Shown one piece after another: positions 1 through 24,067 of a DNA stretch of 39,481 nucleotides. Below the pieces are notes generated by a model. The model did no database searches and was not told the DNA's origin. It saw only the letters and a program-made list of their open reading frames with translations. Numbering within the stretch: position 1 is the first letter of the stretch; each line of letters opens with the position of its first letter. A program made the position numbers and the translations under genes. The stretch is from Myxococcales bacterium (lineage in GTDB: Bacteria > Myxococcota_A > Polyangia > Haliangiales > Haliangiaceae), in contig JAEUJX010000057.1 in assembly GCA_016794545.1 (NCBI GenBank), positions 1 through 39,481 of the forward strand, given 5' to 3'.

Positions 1-312
1 CGAGATCATGTCCTCGGGCTCCGAACCCGCGTTCTGGTTGATGCCGCGCGCGATGACGAGCAGGTGATCGCCGTGCGGCGTCGCGCGCGGGCGAGGATCC
101 GGCTCGAGCAGCGCCTCGCGCATCAGCAGATCGATCCCGGACCCCTCGTCGAGCCACGCCTGCACGTCCGCGCGCGTGTAGTCGAGGTTGAGCCACAGGA
201 CGCCGTCGGCGGGCTGCCACGCGCGCACGCCGTCCCAGTCGAGGCTCCTCGCGCCGCCCTTGCCGTCGAGCAGGAACGCGTGCAGGAGGCCGGTCTCGGC
301 CGGGGTGCCCAT
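1..312 (-). CDS. zntB: ZntB-type zinc/divalent cation transporter, N-terminal part (cut by window edge)
   Basis: The reverse strand reads open from an ATG at 312 to the window edge, giving the first 104 residues. The translation starts MGTPAETGLLHAFLLDGKGG and continues with a DWDGVRAWQPADGVLWLNLDY stretch and a later PRPRATPHGDHLLVIARGIN stretch, the pattern of the cytoplasmic domain of ZntB/CorA-family proteins (family recognition from memory). The two C-terminal membrane helices and the GxN pore motif lie outside the window, so transport direction and ion cannot be judged. The start is only 27 bp from the divergent dipeptidase start at 340, so both promoters must overlap or lie inside the coding regions. 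ZntB is the best fit; a generic CorA-like protein is the alternative. Confidence 0.82.
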   Translation of the reverse strand, partial: MGTPAETGLLHAFLLDGKGGARSLDWDGVRAWQPADGVLWLNLDYTRADVQAWLDEGSGIDLLMREALLEPDPRPRATPHGDHLLVIARGINQNAGSEPEDMIS

Positions 313-339
313 CCACGTCGGTTGTACTACGCTCGAGGC

Positions 340-939
340 ATGCGCGGCGCACTGCTGGTCCTGATCGCGAGCGCCGGCGTCGCGCGCGCCGGTGGCCCGG
401 GCAGGGCGGCCGAGCTCGTCGATGTCGCCGCGGTGATCCCCGACGCCGTGATCGACATCCGCTACGCGACCGCCGGCAACTTCACCGGCGAGGCGCTGTA
501 CCCGAAGGCGGTGTGCAAGCTGCGGCGGGCCGTCGCGGAGAAGCTCGCGATCGCGGCGAAGGCGCTGCGCGCCCAGCAGCGCCGGCTGCTGCTGTGGGAC
601 TGCTACCGGCCGTCGTCGATCCAGCGGGTGCTGTGGGACCGGGTGCCCGACACGAAGTACGTCGCGGATCCGAAGGTCGGCAGCGTCCACAGCCGCGGGG
701 CCGCGGTCGATGTCGGGCTCGTCGATCTCGACGGAGCGCCGGTGACGCTGCCGACCGAGTACGACAGCTTCGGCGAGGCGGCGCACCGCGATCGCGCGCT
801 CGTGGGCGAGCGGGGGACCGAGGCGCGCCGGCTCGCGGCGGCGATGGCGAAGGCCGGGTTCGTCGGCATCCCCACCGAGTGGTGGCACTATGACGCAGAA
901 GGCGGCGCGAGATATCCGCTCTCGGATGAGCCGCTGTAG
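340..939 (+). CDS. Secreted D-alanyl-D-alanine dipeptidase (VanX/DdpX type, peptidase M15D)
   Basis: A 199-residue zinc dipeptidase that would hydrolyse D-Ala-D-Ala released from peptidoglycan. It begins with a signal peptide (MRGALLVLIASAGVARA, likely cut after residue 17), which places it in the periplasm. The zinc site is visible: SVHSRGAAVD supplies His117 and Asp124, and EWWHYD supplies the catalytic Glu180 and His183. The DCYRP motif at 87-91 carries the conserved Arg90. Length matches the family. A reading frame continues upstream to position 64 but would run through the opposing zntB gene and lose the signal peptide, so the ATG at 340 is preferred. With a signal peptide and no vanHA genes nearby, cell-wall turnover or D-Ala scavenging is more likely than vancomycin resistance. 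Confidence 0.88.
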   Translation: MRGALLVLIASAGVARAGGPGRAAELVDVAAVIPDAVIDIRYATAGNFTGEALYPKAVCKLRRAVAEKLAIAAKALRAQQRRLLLWDCYRPSSIQRVLWDRVPDTKYVADPKVGSVHSRGAAVDVGLVDLDGAPVTLPTEYDSFGEAAHRDRALVGERGTEARRLAAAMAKAGFVGIPTEWWHYDAEGGARYPLSDEPL

Positions 940-16069: not shown

Positions 16070-16849
16070 GTGCGCCTGGTCCTGGTCGCGTTCGCGGCCG
16101 CCTGCTCCCAGTCGTCGGCTCCGGCACAGCCCGGGCCGGCGCCGGCGTCCGCGACGCCGGCGCCCGCGGCTCCGGCACCCGCACCGGCCGCGGCGCCCGC
16201 GCCGGACGCGCCGCCGCTCCCCGACGCGGCACCCACGGCCGCCGCGGTGTCCCGCCCGCCGATCGTCGATGCCCCGATGGTGTGGAGCCCCGAGCGCGCG
16301 GCGTTGACGCTCGAGTACCGCCGCCGGCACTCCGCGGCCGACGCGGCCGATCTCGCGATCGAGCCGACGGCCATCGTGCTGCACTACACGGGCGGTGGCT
16401 CGGCGAAGGCGACGCGCAGGTACTTCGACAACCCGACCATCGAGGCGGAGCGCGCGGCGCTCGCGCGCGCGGGCAAGGTCAACGTGTCGGCGCACTTCGT
16501 CGTCGACCGCGACGGCACGATCTACCAGATCCAGCCGGTGACGCGGTTCGCGCGGCACTGCATCGGCCTCAACCACACGGCCATCGGCGTCGAGAACGCC
16601 GGCGACGAGGCGACGTTCCCGCTGACCGATGCGCAGGTCGAGGCGAACGTGCAGCTGGTGCGCTACCTCGTCGCCACGCAGCCGACGATCACGCGCCTGC
16701 TCGGGCACCACGAGGTGATGGGACTGCGCGGCGATCCGATCTACGTGGAGCTCGATCCCGCGTACAAGAACGACAAGGGCGATCCGGGGCCGCGCTTCAT
16801 GGCGAAGGTCCGCGCGAAGCTGACCGACCTCGGCCTGGCGGGACCTTAG
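16070..16849 (+). CDS. N-acetylmuramoyl-L-alanine amidase lipoprotein (Amidase_2)
   Basis: A 259-residue lipoprotein that would cleave the amide bond between muramic acid and the stem peptide. From GTG 16070 it begins VRLVLVAFAAAC, a lipoprotein signal with the lipid-modified Cys12. A Pro/Ala linker runs to about residue 65. The amidase domain has zinc ligands His105 (IVLHYTGG), a His in LGHHEVMG (213) and Asp238 in KGDPGPRF, plus Glu175 in AIGVENAG, as in AmpD-like enzymes. A TTG at 16034 is in frame, but would bury the lipoprotein signal. Its TAG shares bases with the TAA of the convergent PEGA gene (TTAG, 16846-16849). Confidence 0.88.
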   Translation: MRLVLVAFAAACSQSSAPAQPGPAPASATPAPAAPAPAPAAAPAPDAPPLPDAAPTAAAVSRPPIVDAPMVWSPERAALTLEYRRRHSAADAADLAIEPTAIVLHYTGGGSAKATRRYFDNPTIEAERAALARAGKVNVSAHFVVDRDGTIYQIQPVTRFARHCIGLNHTAIGVENAGDEATFPLTDAQVEANVQLVRYLVATQPTITRLLGHHEVMGLRGDPIYVELDPAYKNDKGDPGPRFMAKVRAKLTDLGLAGP

Positions 16850-19845
16850 CGGCCGCGCCGCGCGGGCGCCTTCTTCAGCGACGACGTGATCGAGAGGTTG
16901 TTCGTCTTCGGCGTCACGCGCTGCGTGTCGGGCTGGTAGCCGTCCTTCTTGATCGTCAACGTGGACGTCTCGAACGCGGGCAACTTCACCGCCGCGGGCG
17001 TGACGCCGAGCGACCTCGCGCCGAGCAGGATCGTCGCGCCGGCCGGCGACGAGCTTACCTTCACCGTGAACGTGACCCTCGCGAGCGCGACCCTGACCGG
17101 CTTGCCTCCCTCCGGCTTCGGCGTCACCGTGCGCGTCGCGCTGACGTAGCGCGTCTTCTTGAACGTCAGCTTGCTCTCGACGCCGCACGGCAGCGCCGCC
17201 GTCATCGGCGTCGTGCCGAGCACGGTCCTGTCGAGGAGGACCTCCGCGCCGGTCGGCGCCGAGGCGATCGCGACGTTGCAGTCGGTCGCGGCGGCGACCT
17301 GGGGCGGCTCGTCGGGCGGCTTCCTCTCGGGCGGCTCCTCGGCCGCGGCATCGACGGGGACGACGGGCGCGACCGCCGCCTGCTGCGCGCTGCCCGCGCT
17401 GCCATCGCCCGAGGGCGGCGCCGGCGGCGCAGTGGGCTTCGGCTCGACGGGCGGCGGCTGCGAGACCTGCTTCCCCGCGCTGCCATCGCCCGCCGGCGCA
17501 GGCTCGGTCGCATCGGCCTGCTTGTCGCCGCCGCCCGACAGCGCGACCACCAGGATGATGCCGAGCAGGATCGCGCCGCCGGCGATGCCGCCGATCAGCA
17601 TCATCCGCCGCTTGCGCTCGTCGGGCGAGCGCGGCACGCGGATCGCCTCGGTCGGCATGTACGCCTGATCGGCGACGGGGTACGCCTGCGGGTACGCGGG
17701 GACCTGGCTCGACGCGTTCGCGAGCTGACCGGGCAGCGGCGCCGGGTAGCCGCCGTGCATCGCCGGGTTCGTCGCCGCCGTCGGCTCTCCCGGCATCGCG
17801 AGCGCGCCGGCGCGCATCACGTCGGTGATCGGGACCGCGCCGGGCTGCATCGGCACCGGCGTCGCGATCACACCGGGCGTCGCGGCGACGAGCCCGTGCG
17901 GCGACGTCTGCACCGGAGGGGCGGTCGTCGGCGGCGGCGGAAGCTGACCCGGCGGCTCGTCGTCGAAGTCATCGATCGGCTGGAGCGGCTGGAGCGGCTC
18001 CATCAGCGTCGGATCGATCTCGATCTTCGCCTCGTCGGCCTTCACGGCCGGAACGCGCGTCTCGGGCTTGGCGTCCGAGTCGAGGTCCTTCACGCTCGCG
18101 ACCGCCGACACCGGCGGGCCGGGCTTGTCCGCAGGCAGCTCGGGCCGCTTCTCGATCTTCGACGGCTCGCTCCAGCCATCGGGACGCGTCGGATCGAGCG
18201 CGATGATGAAGTCGCCGGTCGGCGGTCCCGGAGGGATGGGCTTCGCGGGCTTGTCCCCCGGCGGCCGGGTGCCGGTCGCTTTGCGCGGGACGGGCGTGAT
18301 GGTCGGTCCGTCGGCGCCGACCGTCATGGTCCAGTCGCCGCTCGGCGTGTGCTCCTCGACGGCCGCCGCCCGCAGCACCGCCGATGGCACCTTCTGCGGG
18401 ACCGTGACGGGCCCCGACGGCGGCCCCGCCGCCTCGAGCTCCGAGCGCGGCGGTGGAGCGCTCGTGATCACCGCGGGACCGCTCGTCTCCTCGGCGGCCA
18501 TCAGCCCGGTGTCGCGCGCCTCGGCGTCGCCGGTCGGAGCCCGTGGCGCCGTCGCCGGCAGCACGTGTACGCCAGATGGCACCACCGCGACGCCGATCGA
18601 CGTCCTGCGCTGCTCGCGCACGCTCTTCTCGGGCTTCGCCACCTCGCGCGGACCCGTGATCGGTCCCGACGGCTCGAGCGGCACGGACGTCAGGTCCGTC
18701 GGTTCGTCGTCGGCGAGCTCCTCGACGAGCGGCCGCGCCTCGGCGACCACCGGCGGCTTCGGAACGCCCGCCGGCGGCGTCGGCTGCTTGACGGCGAACG
18801 GGTTCGCCACGGGACCCGACGGCGACTTGGGGAGCTCGGCGCCGACGACGTTCGAGCCCGCGGGCGGCGTGGTCGTGCGCGTGGGCACGACGGCGGATCC
18901 GCTCGCCGGCGTGGGCGGCCTGGGCACGCCGACGGCCGGCGTGGGCGGCCTGGGCACGCCGACGGCCGGCGTGGGCGGCTTCGCCGGCGTCGGAGCCGGC
19001 CCGCGCATCGTCGTCTCGGGGTCGGCCTTCACCTGCTCGCGCGCGCGGCGCTCCTCGCGCTCCTTGACGAGCAGATCGACCGCCGGCGCGGGCCCCTTCA
19101 CGGTCTCGTCGAGGTTCTTGAGGTCCGCCGGCGGCGCCGGCGCCTTCGCGAGCGGCGCCATGCCCATCGTCGTCGCGGTGGCAGACGGTGCGGGTGGGGC
19201 CGGGACCACGGGAGCTCCACCGGTCGGCACCTTCTTGAGGGGCGGCATGCCCATCGTCGTGGCGGTCGCCGACGGCGTGCCGGACGGCGGCGTGCTCGGG
19301 CTCCTCGGGCGCGCGCCCGCGCCCATCGGCGGGATCGACGGCACGACGAACTTCGACGCCACGCTCTTCGGCTCGTCGCCGACGAGCGTCGACACGTCGC
19401 CGATCACGACGCACTGGGCCAGCGCGTTCACCGCGTCGATCCGGCCCGCCGGCGTCGGCGGGGTAGGACGCGGGGCGGCGGGGAGCTCGGCGGGGCGGGG
19501 CGGCACGCTGGGCGGTCCCGGCTTCACCGCGAGGCGCGCCCGCTCGAGCTCGCCGAGGAGCGTCTTGCTCGGCTCGTCGGGCTCGGTGAACTTCAGCGTC
19601 ATCCCGACGCGGCCGTAGAGCACCGACGGCGTCTTCGCCGACGATACGACCTCGGCCTCGCCTTCGATCATCACGCCGCCCCCGGTCAGCGTGATCGCGA
19701 ACCGGCCGCGCTTCCCCGGTGGGAGCGGCTCGGCGATCGGCACGAACAGCACGCCGTTGCGGTCGGCGTACCTGCGGAATGCCGCGACGAACTCTTCGCC
19801 CGACGAGCAAGCCGAGACCAGGTAGATCGGCGCCCCAGTCGTCAC
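16846..19845 (-). CDS. Large PilZ-like / proline-rich / PEGA-domain membrane protein
   Basis: A 999-residue protein starting at GTG 19845. The N-terminal 105 residues look like a PilZ-type beta-barrel (NGVLFVPIAEPLPPGKRGRF, then GRVGMTLKF), lacking an obvious RxxxR c-di-GMP motif. Residues 110-745 are proline-rich and probably disordered. They contain repeated short motifs: SATATTMGM twice, PRPPTPAVGV tandemly, and SGDWTMTVG and TGDFIIALD elements. One membrane helix lies at 749-769, preceded by ERKRR, so the N-terminal part is cytoplasmic. The exported C-terminal part has two PEGA domains (about 857-915 and 926-985; NVAIASAPTGAEVLLD, VKVSSSPAGATILLG), which typically bind the cell envelope. 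It may connect a cytoplasmic signal to the cell wall. Function unknown. Confidence 0.82.
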   Translation of the reverse strand: MTTGAPIYLVSACSSGEEFVAAFRRYADRNGVLFVPIAEPLPPGKRGRFAITLTGGGVMIEGEAEVVSSAKTPSVLYGRVGMTLKFTEPDEPSKTLLGELERARLAVKPGPPSVPPRPAELPAAPRPTPPTPAGRIDAVNALAQCVVIGDVSTLVGDEPKSVASKFVVPSIPPMGAGARPRSPSTPPSGTPSATATTMGMPPLKKVPTGGAPVVPAPPAPSATATTMGMAPLAKAPAPPADLKNLDETVKGPAPAVDLLVKEREERRAREQVKADPETTMRGPAPTPAKPPTPAVGVPRPPTPAVGVPRPPTPASGSAVVPTRTTTPPAGSNVVGAELPKSPSGPVANPFAVKQPTPPAGVPKPPVVAEARPLVEELADDEPTDLTSVPLEPSGPITGPREVAKPEKSVREQRRTSIGVAVVPSGVHVLPATAPRAPTGDAEARDTGLMAAEETSGPAVITSAPPPRSELEAAGPPSGPVTVPQKVPSAVLRAAAVEEHTPSGDWTMTVGADGPTITPVPRKATGTRPPGDKPAKPIPPGPPTGDFIIALDPTRPDGWSEPSKIEKRPELPADKPGPPVSAVASVKDLDSDAKPETRVPAVKADEAKIEIDPTLMEPLQPLQPIDDFDDEPPGQLPPPPTTAPPVQTSPHGLVAATPGVIATPVPMQPGAVPITDVMRAGALAMPGEPTAATNPAMHGGYPAPLPGQLANASSQVPAYPQAYPVADQAYMPTEAIRVPRSPDERKRRMMLIGGIAGGAILLGIILVVALSGGGDKQADATEPAPAGDGSAGKQVSQPPPVEPKPTAPPAPPSGDGSAGSAQQAAVAPVVPVDAAAEEPPERKPPDEPPQVAAATDCNVAIASAPTGAEVLLDRTVLGTTPMTAALPCGVESKLTFKKTRYVSATRTVTPKPEGGKPVRVALARVTFTVKVSSSPAGATILLGARSLGVTPAAVKLPAFETSTLTIKKDGYQPDTQRVTPKTNNLSITSSLKKAPARRGR
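18911..18980. repeat. In-frame 30-bp tandem repeat inside the PEGA protein gene
   Basis: Two perfect 30-bp copies (18911-18940 and 18941-18970, starting GTGGGCGGCC) and a partial third copy. On the coding strand they encode a 10-residue PRPPTPAVGV-type unit in the disordered linker. Base-perfect identity suggests recent slippage or recombination, so copy number may vary between strains. Confidence 0.9.
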
Positions 19846-19882
19846 TCACGACAAGTGTAAGCCGGGAGCGCAGAAAATGCGA

Positions 19883-19917
19883 CGGGCGCCGTCGGGGTGA
19901 CCCCCAAGCGGCGCCCG
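19883..19917 (-). terminator. Likely terminator of the histone-fold gene
   Basis: Reading in the minus direction, CGGGCGCCG pairs with CGGCGCCCG (9-bp stem, 17-nt loop that itself contains GGGG-TCA-CCCC), followed after four bases by TTTT (19877-19874). It lies between the histone-fold gene stop and the start of the next minus-strand gene at 19845. The T-run is short, so efficiency is uncertain. Confidence 0.6.
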
Positions 19918-19937
19918 GTCGACACCCGGTCGCGCAA

Positions 19938-19956
19938 GGTCCGGCTCCGCCGGACC
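19938..19956. repeat. Second hairpin downstream of the histone-fold gene
   Basis: GGTCCGGC-TCC-GCCGGACC is a perfect 8-bp stem with a 3-nt loop. Together with the neighbours at 19883-19917 and 19962-19980 it makes three hairpins in a row in the 3' untranslated region. Such arrays often protect mRNA from 3' decay. Confidence 0.6.
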
Positions 19957-19961
19957 GCGCA

Positions 19962-19980
19962 GCACCGCCGGAGGCGGTGC
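19962..19980. repeat. First hairpin downstream of the histone-fold gene
   Basis: GCACCGCC-GGA-GGCGGTGC is a perfect 8-bp stem with a 3-nt loop, 10 bp after the histone-fold stop codon. Very stable as RNA. No T-run follows it directly, so mRNA stabilisation or assistance to termination is more likely than termination alone. Confidence 0.6.
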
Positions 19981-19990
19981 GAAGGTCTAT

Positions 19991-20221
19991 TTACATGACG
20001 AGGAAGTCGTGCGCGCGAACGGTCTTGCGACCGTTCGCCGCGGCGCGCTTCGCCGCCGCATCGATCAGCCACGCGACGTACGCGTTCAGGCCGTCGAGCG
20101 CGTCACCGGCGGTGTTGCAGCCCGCCGCCTTGATCTGACCGCGGACCTTCGAGCTCACCAGGAACATCTCGGCCGGCTTGCTAGCGCCACCGGCCTTGCC
20201 ACCCTTCTTCGCTTTCGCCAT
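19991..20221 (-). CDS. Bacterial histone-fold DNA-binding protein with lysine-rich tail
   Basis: A 76-residue basic protein. Residues 1-18 (MAKAKKGGKAGGASKPAE) form a Lys/Gly/Ala tail. Residues 20-76 look like one histone fold: short helix 1 (SSKVRGQIKAAG), long helix 2 (about 38-62, DALDGLNAYVAWLIDAAAKR), loop 2 with GRKTV (64-68) and a short helix 3 (RAHDFLV). The GRKT element and the length match archaeal HMf histones and, more closely, the Bdellovibrio histone Bd0055 as I recall it. It probably binds DNA as a dimer and acts in nucleoid organisation. An AAGGAG Shine-Dalgarno 6 nt before the ATG and three 3' hairpins suggest high expression. It is monocistronic. It differs clearly from HU and H-NS. 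No structure prediction was possible here. Confidence 0.8.
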   Translation of the reverse strand: MAKAKKGGKAGGASKPAEMFLVSSKVRGQIKAAGCNTAGDALDGLNAYVAWLIDAAAKRAAANGRKTVRAHDFLVM

Positions 20222-20227
20222 CGGACT

Positions 20228-20233
20228 CTCCTT
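20228..20233 (-). promoter_or_regulatory. Strong Shine-Dalgarno of the histone-fold gene
   Basis: AAGGAG on the minus strand, 6 nt before the ATG at 20221. It is among the best ribosome-binding sites in the window, where most genes have weak or no such site. It fixes the start codon and implies strong translation. Confidence 0.8.
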
Positions 20234-20246
20234 GAGAAAAGATTGA

Positions 20247-20266
20247 GGTGCGCTTCTTTTCGCACC
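20247..20266 (-). promoter_or_regulatory. Inverted repeat in the histone-fold gene leader
   Basis: GGTGCG-(8 nt AT-rich loop)-CGCACC, a 6-bp stem located 25-45 bp before the start codon. It could be a leader hairpin or a dimeric operator. Only the symmetry supports it. Confidence 0.35.
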
Positions 20267-20298
20267 ACTTCCCGTCGGGAGGGAAGCTGGAATGCGTG

Positions 20299-20338
20299 TT
20301 TTCGGCGAATGCGTGCGATCTACAGGGGGCGCCGAAAA
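20299..20338. repeat. 9-bp inverted repeat between propeller lipoprotein and histone-fold genes
   Basis: TTTTCGGCG and CGCCGAAAA flank a 22-nt spacer, starting one base after the stop codon of the minus-strand lipoprotein gene. The A/T tails are on the wrong sides for an intrinsic terminator. It may still fold in the lipoprotein mRNA 3' end or serve as a binding site upstream of the histone-fold gene. Confidence 0.45.
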
Positions 20339-20339
20339 C

Positions 20340-21878
20340 CTACCGGTCGAGCTTGAGCACGAACGTATCCGGCTTGGGGATCCGGTCTCCCTCGGCGCGC
20401 ACGCTCTGGAGCGGAGGCTCGACGGCCGAGAGCGCGAACCGGTAGATGCCCGCGATGTACGCCGCGCCCTTCTCGTCGACGGCGCACACGCGGCCCTGAT
20501 CGTGATCCTTGTCGCCGAACGACTGCGCCCACACCGTGGCGCCCTTCGCGTCGAGCTTCAGCGCGAAGATGTCCTTGTTCCCCTTGCTCGTGATCGGGCC
20601 CTTGCCGAAGTCGACCGACCCCTGGAACCAGCCGCTCACGACGACGTTGCCCGCGGCGTCGGCGCCGACACCCGACGCGATGTCCTCGCGCTCCGCGCCC
20701 ATCGTCTTCGCCCACTGGAGCTTGCCGCTCGGCGTGAACCGCGCGACGAACAGATCGCTCTCGCCGAGCGACGTGTGATCGTCGCCCTCGCCGAACGACG
20801 CGCTCTTGTCGAACGAGCCGACCATCGTGACGTGTCCCGCCGGGTCGACCGTGACGCCGCCGGCGACGTCGTTGAACGCGTTGCCGAACCGCTTCGACCA
20901 CACGTGGTCGCCGTTCAGATCGTACTTCGCGAGCACGACGTCGAGGTCGCTGCCCCCGCCGGCCTTGAGTCGGTCCTTGCCCCCCCAGTCGGACAGGTCC
21001 TTGAACTGGCCCTGGACGTAGATGTTGCCCTGACCGTCGACGGCGACGTGGCTGATCAGATCTTGATACGCGCCGCCGAACTGCTTGACCCACTCGAGGT
21101 CGCCGCTCGGCGCGAGCTTCAGCAGCATGGCGTCGGTGCCGCCGCGGCTCTTCAGCGTGGTCGTGCCGAAGTCCGCGCTGCCGGAGAACGAGCCGCCGAC
21201 GACCCACCCGCCGTCGGGCATGGCCGCGACCGCATTCGCGCCGTCGGAGTCGATGCCGCCGAAGTTCCACAGCCACTGGATCTCGCCCTTCGCATCGAAC
21301 TGCGCGACAAACGCGTCGTCGGAGCCGGCGCTCTTCTTCGTGAACTCGCCGAGCTTCAGGCTGTCGAGGAAGTTGCCGACGACGATCACCTTGTCGCCCT
21401 TCACCGCGACATCGTTCGCGGAGTCGTCACGCGCGGCGCCGAACGTCTGCACCCACGCGACCTTGCCGTCGGCGCCGACCTTCGCGAGGTACGCGTCGCT
21501 CGGCTTCTTCTTCGGATCCGCGCCGGCCACCGGCGCCTTCTTGCCGATCGTGCCGCCGAAATCGATCTCGGCGTCGAAGTAGCCCGCGACGTAGACCTCG
21601 CCGGCCGAGGTCACGCCGATGCCGCGCGGCGAGTCGATGCCGAGCCCGCCGAACCCGGTCGCCCACAGCGCCTTCCCGGTCGCGCCGCCCGGATCCGCCT
21701 GGAGCTCGGGCAGCGGCTTGGTCTCGACGGGCTTCTTGACCTGCGGAGGCGGTGCCTCCGCGACCTTGCCCTGCGTCGTGTCGCTGCCCTTGTCGGGCTG
21801 CTTGCCTCGGCCCTCGTCCTTCTTGCCGCCGCAGCCGAGGACCAGCGAACCCGCGATCACCAGGGTCGTCACGCGCAT
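20340..21878 (-). CDS. Lipoprotein with SBBP-type beta-propeller repeats
   Basis: A 512-residue lipoprotein starting MRVTTLVIAGSLVLGCGG, with Cys16 as the lipid anchor. A Lys/Pro/Gln-rich linker precedes about seven repeats of roughly 50-60 residues built like SGDLEWVKQFGG, then a DGQGNIYVQGQF-type strand pair. These are typical SBBP/YVTN-like propeller blades, so it is probably a periplasmic or surface-exposed propeller. No catalytic residues are evident; ligand binding or protein interaction is likely. It is divergent from the HEAT-cyclophilin lipoprotein across 62 bp. The frame is open for 26 further codons upstream but the lipoprotein signal fixes the start at 21878. Confidence 0.85.
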   Translation of the reverse strand: MRVTTLVIAGSLVLGCGGKKDEGRGKQPDKGSDTTQGKVAEAPPPQVKKPVETKPLPELQADPGGATGKALWATGFGGLGIDSPRGIGVTSAGEVYVAGYFDAEIDFGGTIGKKAPVAGADPKKKPSDAYLAKVGADGKVAWVQTFGAARDDSANDVAVKGDKVIVVGNFLDSLKLGEFTKKSAGSDDAFVAQFDAKGEIQWLWNFGGIDSDGANAVAAMPDGGWVVGGSFSGSADFGTTTLKSRGGTDAMLLKLAPSGDLEWVKQFGGAYQDLISHVAVDGQGNIYVQGQFKDLSDWGGKDRLKAGGGSDLDVVLAKYDLNGDHVWSKRFGNAFNDVAGGVTVDPAGHVTMVGSFDKSASFGEGDDHTSLGESDLFVARFTPSGKLQWAKTMGAEREDIASGVGADAAGNVVVSGWFQGSVDFGKGPITSKGNKDIFALKLDAKGATVWAQSFGDKDHDQGRVCAVDEKGAAYIAGIYRFALSAVEPPLQSVRAEGDRIPKPDTFVLKLDR

Positions 21879-21940
21879 GAGACTCACGATGTCACGCAGC
21901 GACGAGCACAGCAACGGTCGCGGACGAGTACAGTCACGGC

Positions 21941-24067
21941 ATGTCGCGCGTTGCAACCGTCGCCACGGTGCTGTGTCTTCTCGCCGCGTGCCCGTCGCCG
22001 TCGGGGCCGGTGAATCCGACGACGCCGCCGCCGGCCGACGACGTGCAGCTGCGCATCCAGGTCGCGCGGCTCGAGGTCAAGCGCGAGGACGGCATCCGCG
22101 AGCTCGCCGAGCTCGCGACCGGATCCGATCGGCGCGCCCGCGAGCTCGCGATCCGCGGCCTCGGACGGATCGGCGGCAAGGCACGCGCGACGCTGCGCCC
22201 GCTCCTCGCGGATCCCGACGCTCGCATCGTCGCCGTGACGATGGCGGCGCTCGGCATCGCCCGCGAGCTCGACGATCTCACCGTCGCCGAGGGCGAGGCG
22301 CTCGTCGGCGAGCTGCAGCGTGCCTACGGGCGCACCACGGGTGCCGACCGCATCCTCGCGATCGAGGCGCTCGGCCGCGCCGGCGACGAGCGCAGCCAGC
22401 CGTTGCTCGTCGAGGAGCTCGGGAAGGGCGGCGCGGTCGCCGAGGCCGCGGGCATCGCGCTCGCGCGCCACGGCCGGCGCAAGATCTCGCTCGCGCCGCG
22501 CACCGTTCACGCGGTCGCGGTCGCGCTCGGCAGCGCGGATGCACGTACGCGGTGGGGCGCGACGTACGCGCTCGCACGCGCCGTGATGATCGCGAAGCCC
22601 GAGTCGGAGCTGACGAGCGGGCTCGCTGCGCGCGTGGGCGACGAGAGCGCCGAGATCCGCGCGCTCGCGTGTGCGGCGCTCGCGAAGCACGGCGCCGTCG
22701 CGCAGACGACGTTCCAGCTCGAGAAGGCGCTGCTCGATCGCGACTGGCACGTCGCCGTCGAGGCGGTGCGCGCGATGACCGGCGACAGGGTACCGGCGGA
22801 GGCCGCCGATGCGGTCGCGACCGCGCTCGTGCGCCGGCTCGCGGATCTCGACCTCGGCGCCGCGAGCGAGGCGCACGTGATCATGGAGGGCCTGCGCGGC
22901 CTCGCGAGGAGCGCCGGGCGGCCGGTCGTCGCGAAGGCGCTGCAGGCGATCTCGCAGTGGTCGCAGATGACGACGAAGCCGGCCGAGCTGACGCGCAGCT
23001 GGATCGAGTGCCTCGCCGCCGTCGGTGCGGCGCGAGCGGCGAACACGCTCGCGCCCGTCGTCGAGTGCTCGGCGCGGCGGTTGCCAGATCACCTGCGGAT
23101 GCCGTTGCTCGCGCAGCTGGTCACCGCCGGCATCGGCTCGGCGCAGGAGCGGCGAACGACCCTGCTGAACCTCATGTCGCACTCCGACGTGCGCGTGAAG
23201 TCGTCCGCGCTCGGCGCGTTGACCGCGGGGTGGGCCACGCAGAGCGAGGCCGATCGGCGCGCCGCGGTCGGGATCCTCGTCGGTGCGCTCGCGTCGCCCG
23301 ATCCGATCTTCGCCGGCAACGCGGTGGACGCGGTCGGCGGCTTCTACGAGGCGATCGGCAAGGGCGATCACGCGGCGCTCGATGCGGCGCTCGTCGCGCG
23401 CGCGGGCAGCGAGAAGGACGCCGAGCTCTCCGCCGCGCTGTTCGAGGCGATCGGCGCGCACAAGATCGCGGCGGGCGCCGACGCCTGCCGCGCCGGGCTC
23501 GACGGGATCCCGGTCCGCGCGAAGGCCGCGCGCGGATGTCTCGCCGCGCTCGGCGAGGCGGCGCCTCCGGGCGACACCCGCACGCACGCGCCGCCGCCGC
23601 CGGTCGATGTCGCGACGGTGATCGGCAAGCCGATCGAGTGGCGCCTCGCGACGTCGCGCGGCGAGATCGTGATCGAGCTGCGGCCCGACGTCGCGCCGTG
23701 GGCCGTCGCGTCGGTCGTCGCGCTCACGCAGGCGGGCAAGTACGACGGGCTCGCGCTCCATCGCGTGGTGCCCGACTTCGTCGCGCAGGGCGGGGATCCG
23801 ACCGAGTCGGGGTGGGGCGGTCCGGGCTACACGCTCCCGGCCGAGCCCGCGAGCTCGGCCGACGGCCCGGGGTTCGTCGCGGGCGGTGTCGGGATGGCCG
23901 ACGCCGGGAGGGACAGCGCGGGGTCGCAGTGGTTCGTGATGCACGCCCGCGCGGCCCACCTCGACGGCCGGTACACCTGGATCGGCTCGCTCGAGAGCGG
24001 CCAGAAGTCCGCGGATGCCTTACTGATCGGCGACGTCGTGCGGAAGGCGACGATCACCGGGCCGTGA
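21941..24067 (+). CDS. HEAT-repeat lipoprotein with C-terminal cyclophilin (peptidyl-prolyl isomerase)
   Basis: A 708-residue lipoprotein (MSRVATVATVLCLLAAC, anchor Cys17). Residues about 35-550 are alpha-helical HEAT-like repeats (RELAIRGLGRIGGKARATL, EIRALACAALAKHGAVA). Residues 560-708 are a cyclophilin domain: LHRVVPDFVAQGGDP contains the catalytic-type Arg, then GSQWFVMHARAAHLDGRYTWIG, where Trp replaces the usual Phe after GSQ. It should isomerise prolyl bonds and assist envelope protein folding, with HEAT repeats recruiting substrates. Such fusions occur in myxobacteria and Bacteroidetes. The next gene starts 52 bp on in the same direction and might be co-transcribed. Confidence 0.88.
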   Translation: MSRVATVATVLCLLAACPSPSGPVNPTTPPPADDVQLRIQVARLEVKREDGIRELAELATGSDRRARELAIRGLGRIGGKARATLRPLLADPDARIVAVTMAALGIARELDDLTVAEGEALVGELQRAYGRTTGADRILAIEALGRAGDERSQPLLVEELGKGGAVAEAAGIALARHGRRKISLAPRTVHAVAVALGSADARTRWGATYALARAVMIAKPESELTSGLAARVGDESAEIRALACAALAKHGAVAQTTFQLEKALLDRDWHVAVEAVRAMTGDRVPAEAADAVATALVRRLADLDLGAASEAHVIMEGLRGLARSAGRPVVAKALQAISQWSQMTTKPAELTRSWIECLAAVGAARAANTLAPVVECSARRLPDHLRMPLLAQLVTAGIGSAQERRTTLLNLMSHSDVRVKSSALGALTAGWATQSEADRRAAVGILVGALASPDPIFAGNAVDAVGGFYEAIGKGDHAALDAALVARAGSEKDAELSAALFEAIGAHKIAAGADACRAGLDGIPVRAKAARGCLAALGEAAPPGDTRTHAPPPPVDVATVIGKPIEWRLATSRGEIVIELRPDVAPWAVASVVALTQAGKYDGLALHRVVPDFVAQGGDPTESGWGGPGYTLPAEPASSADGPGFVAGGVGMADAGRDSAGSQWFVMHARAAHLDGRYTWIGSLESGQKSADALLIGDVVRKATITGP

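Follow-up and report, generated by a model that had tools for sequence, protein, structure and literature searches.

The 39,481-nucleotide stretch of DNA analyzed here (the window) encodes a bacterial histone that consists of one histone domain preceded by a lysine-rich tail. We consider it probable that this protein is the sole histone of its bacterium, that it is a short-helix-3 (alpha-3) histone, most probably of the face-to-face (FtF) subgroup, and that it acts beside HU proteins as a tetramer that would wrap DNA, with the tail adding contacts. The window is contig 2 of a draft genome of 8.5 Mb and 71% GC, the assembly of which is 96.6% complete. The gene comprises the following parts.

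19991..20221, minus strand: histone gene, 76 aa (MAKAKKGGKAGGASKPAEMFLVSSKVRGQIKAAGCNTAGDALDGLNAYVAWLIDAAAKRAAANGRKTVRAHDFLVM); from the ORF call, phmmer, homologous loci, the AlphaFold model, and the fold search
19994..20170, minus strand: histone-fold codons, residues 18-76, with helices 23-32, 41-62, and 70-72; from alignments and the model
20171..20221, minus strand: tail codons, residues 1-17, with five Lys and no acidic residue, predicted disordered; from comparison of loci, the model, and pN/pS
20228..20233, minus strand: Shine-Dalgarno AAGGAG, 6 bases 5' of the histone ATG; from the sequence

Gene, Fold, and Nearest Relatives

The histone open reading frame runs from 20221 down to 19991 on the minus strand, with 76 codons and an ATG start. 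The initial annotation had placed a 76-residue product here, as we find, but named no strand; the plus-strand reading of 19991-20221 translates to an unrelated peptide and was rejected. The GC content by codon position (0.64/0.51/0.88) resembles that of the adjoining genes, and the Shine-Dalgarno, which had been called strong, is in our judgment a good one. The gene is real and conserved: the phmmer match at 1e-10 to a solved histone, 80 homologous loci in other genomes (81 counting the window), and the pN/pS values given below make the reading frame more than a product of chance.

When PDB sequences were searched with phmmer, the window histone matched HLp (9QT0) with an E value of 1e-10, HBb/Bd0055 (8CMP) with 3e-5, and HTkC (9F2C) with 1e-3. 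A profile of the family matched HLp with 69.8 bits (1.6e-18), HBb with 49.5 bits (3.4e-12), and HTkC with 39.3 bits (5e-9), and reached HMfA at E = 0.1. The AlphaFold2 monomer, computed from a 37-row alignment, has a mean pLDDT of 83, with more than 90 for 50 residues and low confidence across residues 1-20. The model contains a helix at residues 23-32, a 22-residue helix at 41-62, and a one-turn helix of 3 residues at 70-72, bearing out the short-long-short layout proposed in the initial annotation, with a disordered tail. In a Foldseek search with this monomer, HLp (9qt0) came first (TM(target) 0.95, 0.8 Å, 50% identity); HBb gave 0.86-0.90, HTkC 0.86-0.87, and HMfA/B 0.55-0.58, the range over HMf chains being 0.50-0.58. 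The best fold matches are histones, and the R.T motif of the L2 loop and the RD clamp are present as R65, T67, and D72. The PDB phmmer search, the fold match, and the model agree with the earlier description of the product as a bacterial histone of a single domain whose N-terminal tail is rich in lysine.

The Pfam and NCBIfam models gave no match to the window histone even at E = 10, and when 37 relatives were scanned against Pfam, the best E values were 0.063 for CBFD_NFYB_HMF and 0.029 for DUF1931, with none past the cut-off. The search with the Pfam histone family therefore had the outcome that the initial annotation had taken as speaking against a histone, yet the PDB searches gave positive results by sequence and by fold, and for this reason we judge the miss to be a false negative that reflects a limit of the models. 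We note that no model in Pfam-A 2025 or NCBIfam 20.0 recognizes the alpha-3 bacterial histones of this 81-locus family.

The GRKTV loop, which had been ascribed to HMf-type histones, is present at residues 64-68, but the ascription itself does not hold. As modeled, the protein is a short-helix-3 (alpha-3) histone and strictly not HMf-type: it is without the long helix 2 and helix 3 that allow four-helix-bundle stacking, and because both helices are short, its TM scores to HMfA/B fall far below those to HLp, HBb, and HTkC. HMfA/HMfB and the eukaryotic core histones share the general histone fold and the R.T....D motif with the window histone, but their helices 2 and 3 are longer and make four-helix-bundle contacts.

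The nearest solved relative is HLp, the FtF histone of Leptospira perolatii (PDB 9QT0-9QT2; PMC12701072), with which the window histone shares the shortened helix 2, the one-turn helix 3, the tetramer residues, the RD clamp, and most DNA contacts, at the 50% identity and 0.8 Å given above. The two differ at the start, which in HLp is short and disordered (six to seven residues) and in the window histone is a 17-residue lysine tail; in loop 2, which reads RTT in HLp and RKT here; and after the last Phe, where the window histone has three residues. The likeness to Bd0055 that had been noted is upheld by significant sequence and fold matches, but among solved relatives HBb comes second, after HLp, which is nearer in both. 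HBb, from Bdellovibrio bacteriovorus (PDB 8CMP, 8FVX; PMC10627809, PMC11317129), shares the fold, the helix-1 SK motif, GRKTV, and the RD clamp at 37-38% identity, but it is a dimer and has neither a lysine tail nor the tetramer residues R and N. HTkC, an FtF histone (PDB 9F2C), shares the fold and the tetramer-type residue R at 38% identity, but it is archaeal, lacks a tail, and has Glu at the N63 position.

FtF Signature and Oligomeric State

FtF histones are defined by a torus-shaped homotetramer, with the profile residues R48, N52, R54, T56, and D61 (PMC11390915). In the crystal structure of HLp, the tetramer is held by R49, N53, and R55, and the RD clamp is R55-D62 (PMC12701072). The window histone has the full signature as R59, N63, R65, T67, and D72, which align with HLp R49, N53, R55, T57, and D62, and the pattern R...N.R.T....D recurs in 80 of the 81 loci, the one exception being cut by a contig end. 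The HLp DNA contacts S14, K15, K21, T27, G29, and T57 (PMC12701072) are identical here (S24, K25, K31, T37, G39, and T67), and K17 is aligned with R27. Judged by their published description, the bacterial FtF histones of Myxococcota, Bdellovibrionota, Planctomycetota, and Spirochaetota (PMC11390915) have the phylum, the signature, and a positively charged N-terminal tail in common with the window histone and show no evident difference from it. On its sequence, the window histone most probably belongs to the FtF subgroup.

Alternatively, the protein could be a dimer histone of the HBb/Bd0055 kind, which would stay a dimer and bend DNA or coat it edge-on instead of wrapping it. In favor of this reading, the sequence is significantly similar to that of HBb, the folds match, and the two proteins have the RKT motif and a few residues after helix 3 in common. 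RKT (K66, within RKTVRAHD at residues 65-72) is found in the window histone and in all 81 loci; it is without strong conservation in FtF histones and is present in bacterial dimers (PMC11390915). However, the difference between RKT and the FtF-typical RxT, with its weak K/R at loop-2 position 55, is a statistical tendency and not an exclusion. Beyond F73, the window histone continues for three residues (L74-M76), whereas HLp ends at the corresponding Phe; R49 of HLp contacts F63 of the opposing dimer, and with these extra residues that contact may differ here. What speaks against a dimer is that bacterial dimer histones such as HBb are without R48 and N52 (PMC11390915), whereas the equivalent R59 and N63 do not vary across the family alignment or the loci, HBb having Ser and Asp there, and that HLp outscores HBb in sequence as well as fold. 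We regard the dimer as unlikely.

In the FtF tetramer that we favor, two chains would pair in the histone handshake, and two such dimers would probably join face to face via R59/N63/R65 to form a ring, as these residues suggest. By analogy with HLp, about 60 bp of DNA would wrap the basic rim of the tetramer independently of sequence.

The Lysine-Rich Tail

The initial annotation had singled out an 18-residue Lys/Gly/Ala tail as being of particular interest. A tail of this composition is present, with 17 residues, but it is not unusual, as tails are common across the family and in the published FtF histones. Among eleven close relatives, pN/pS is 0.32 in the core, 0.34 in the tail, and 0.04 in the first seven codons, so that the tail is as constrained as the core despite changes in length. 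With near-silent change in the first seven codons and a tail value close to that of the core, the substitution pattern shows the tail to be translated and kept. The loci with tails of at least 10 residues number about 25 of 32 in Myxococcota/deltaproteobacteria, 9 of 11 in Bdellovibrionota, all four in Acidobacteriota, all three in Krumholzibacteriota, few in planctomycetes, and none of nine in Elusimicrobia; for these counts starts were called by rule, and L003, L065, L067, and L080 are visibly miscalled. At +5, the window tail carries a modest charge, against up to +19 in other tails, and the tails of relatives are often longer.

Tailed bacterial histones are already in the literature, and the window histone joins a group described in 2024-2025. 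Bacterial FtF histones commonly carry tails, most of which are positively charged (PMC11390915), while most bacterial singlets are without long tails in a study whose analysis of helix-2 length kept only singlets of up to 65 residues (PMC10627809). A search of the literature on myxobacteria for H1-like proteins rich in lysine returned nothing relevant to the window histone gene. Lysine tails also occur in eukaryotic and some Asgard archaeal histones; the eukaryotic tails share the composition of the window tail but not its sequence.

The flexible tail most likely adds electrostatic, sequence-independent contacts to the DNA backbone. In close relatives, the K:R ratio is 55:2 in the tails and 46:43 in the cores, figures from related rows that serve as a description and not a test; proteins of the 71% GC window contain 3.5% K and 7.6% R. 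Since charge alone would not call for the near-exclusive use of Lys over Arg in a genome of 71% GC, the tail could be a regulated element, in which reversible lysine acetylation or tail-mediated bridging of histone-DNA particles could tune bacterial chromatin. We offer this as a speculative reading of low probability. The deacetylase family is common in bacteria, and a gene of that family was found in the genome, without a link to the histone.

Selection for a start of translation that is A-rich and unstructured might instead have produced the run of lysines as a side effect, as the first codons (GCN AAR GCN AAR) are A-rich despite the 71% GC genome; this is very improbable, as the lysines run on through 17-39 residues in many relatives, well beyond the initiation region, and change within the first seven codons is almost all silent (pS 0.82, pN 0.03).

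Gene Neighborhood, Distribution, and Role

The surroundings of the gene contain the following features.

20340..21956, minus strand: upstream gene, SBBP beta-propeller protein; next to the histone gene in almost every examined member of the genus
20256..20266, minus strand: promoter (-10)-like GGTGCGAAAAG, in register with GGTGTAAAAG conserved in relatives; from the upstream alignment of relatives, putative function
19962..19980, minus strand: hairpin GCACCGCCTCCGGCGGTGC, dispersed repeat; absent at this place in L002, the closest relative
19938..19956, minus strand: another local hairpin GGTCCGGCGGAGCCGGACC; likewise missing from this place in L002
19873..19918, minus strand: terminator-like stem-loop GGGCGCC...GGCGCCC followed by ATTTTC; position kept 3' of the gene in relatives
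16846..19845, minus strand: downstream gene, PEGA-domain protein; conserved beside the histone gene

A GGTGTAAAAG-type motif lies 40-50 bases 5' of the histone ATG and is kept in eleven relatives. The region upstream of the window histone gene has no match to the sigma-70 consensus, and the motif appears promoter-like for this group. We also considered a conserved leader hairpin, since GGTGCGAAAAG in the window also pairs with the following CGCACC, and rejected it; the GGTGTAAAAG half is kept and its pairing partner mostly is not, so a promoter element fits better. Together with the conserved terminator-like stem-loop, the promoter-like motif suggests that the histone gene is on a separate transcript. 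An Rfam scan of the window gave no match.

The initial annotation had read an array of 3' hairpins as implying abundance. We find one conserved terminator, and the other two hairpins are absent in L002; the first of these is a dispersed repeat with 16 copies in the genome at no more than one mismatch, against none for the pattern read backwards. Relatives keep only the single terminator-like stem-loop with its short T run, and the array was rejected as a sign of high expression, leaving abundance of the protein a presumption.

The order SBBP - histone - PEGA (16846-21956, minus strand) is kept in the genus and in some other genomes, without an obvious functional link. This conservation could mean that the protein acts as a local regulator, or as a component of a protein complex linked to the two neighbors, and not as a general chromatin protein. 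We think this highly unlikely: the histone gene is furnished with a promoter-like motif and a terminator of its own, homologues from other phyla and from the rest of Myxococcota occur without these neighbors, which only about half of the loci have, and the DNA-contact residues and basic tail are retained.

The closest named homologues are from metagenome-assembled Deltaproteobacteria, Kofleriaceae, and Myxococcales, and judged by these relatives the bacterium would be a myxobacterial one, in Myxococcota and Haliangiales/Kofleriaceae-like. The histone gene is present in 13 of the 16 genomes of the genus; the three without it are fragmented drafts, each in more than 1000 contigs, with completeness of 73% and 86% for two of them. 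The genome of the window has a single histone copy of this type, and a search of this 96.6% complete assembly for a second or ZZ-type histone found none at E ≤ 1, save one weak 21-residue match. It also has two HU-family genes, so the histone is not the sole nucleoid protein and would work as one alongside the two HU-family proteins.

Two doublets were also observed. In a bacterium of the same order, L114 (G033:C194:26300-27100; 216-602, plus strand) encodes a 128-residue doublet of FtF-type folds, the halves of which (RKTVRGYD and RSTVRHHD) each carry R...N.R.T....D; a single chain of this kind amounts to half an FtF ring or to a built-in dimer. L048 (5821-6192, plus strand), on a contig labeled Euryarchaeota (SP339), encodes a similar doublet of 123 residues (RKTVRAHD and RKTIRGHD); the nearest solved relative of this doublet is the bacterial HLp, and transfer between archaea and bacteria is possible.

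The window histone most likely serves in the nucleoid, where, by analogy with HLp, it would probably wrap about 60 bp around a tetramer. Annotation pipelines and surveys based on cut-offs probably undercount the group, since current Pfam and NCBIfam models give the window protein no name. Among bacterial histones, detailed structural work covers only HBb and HLp, neither of which carries a long lysine tail. The family described here offers tailed histones in several phyla, which makes the function of such tails in bacteria directly testable.
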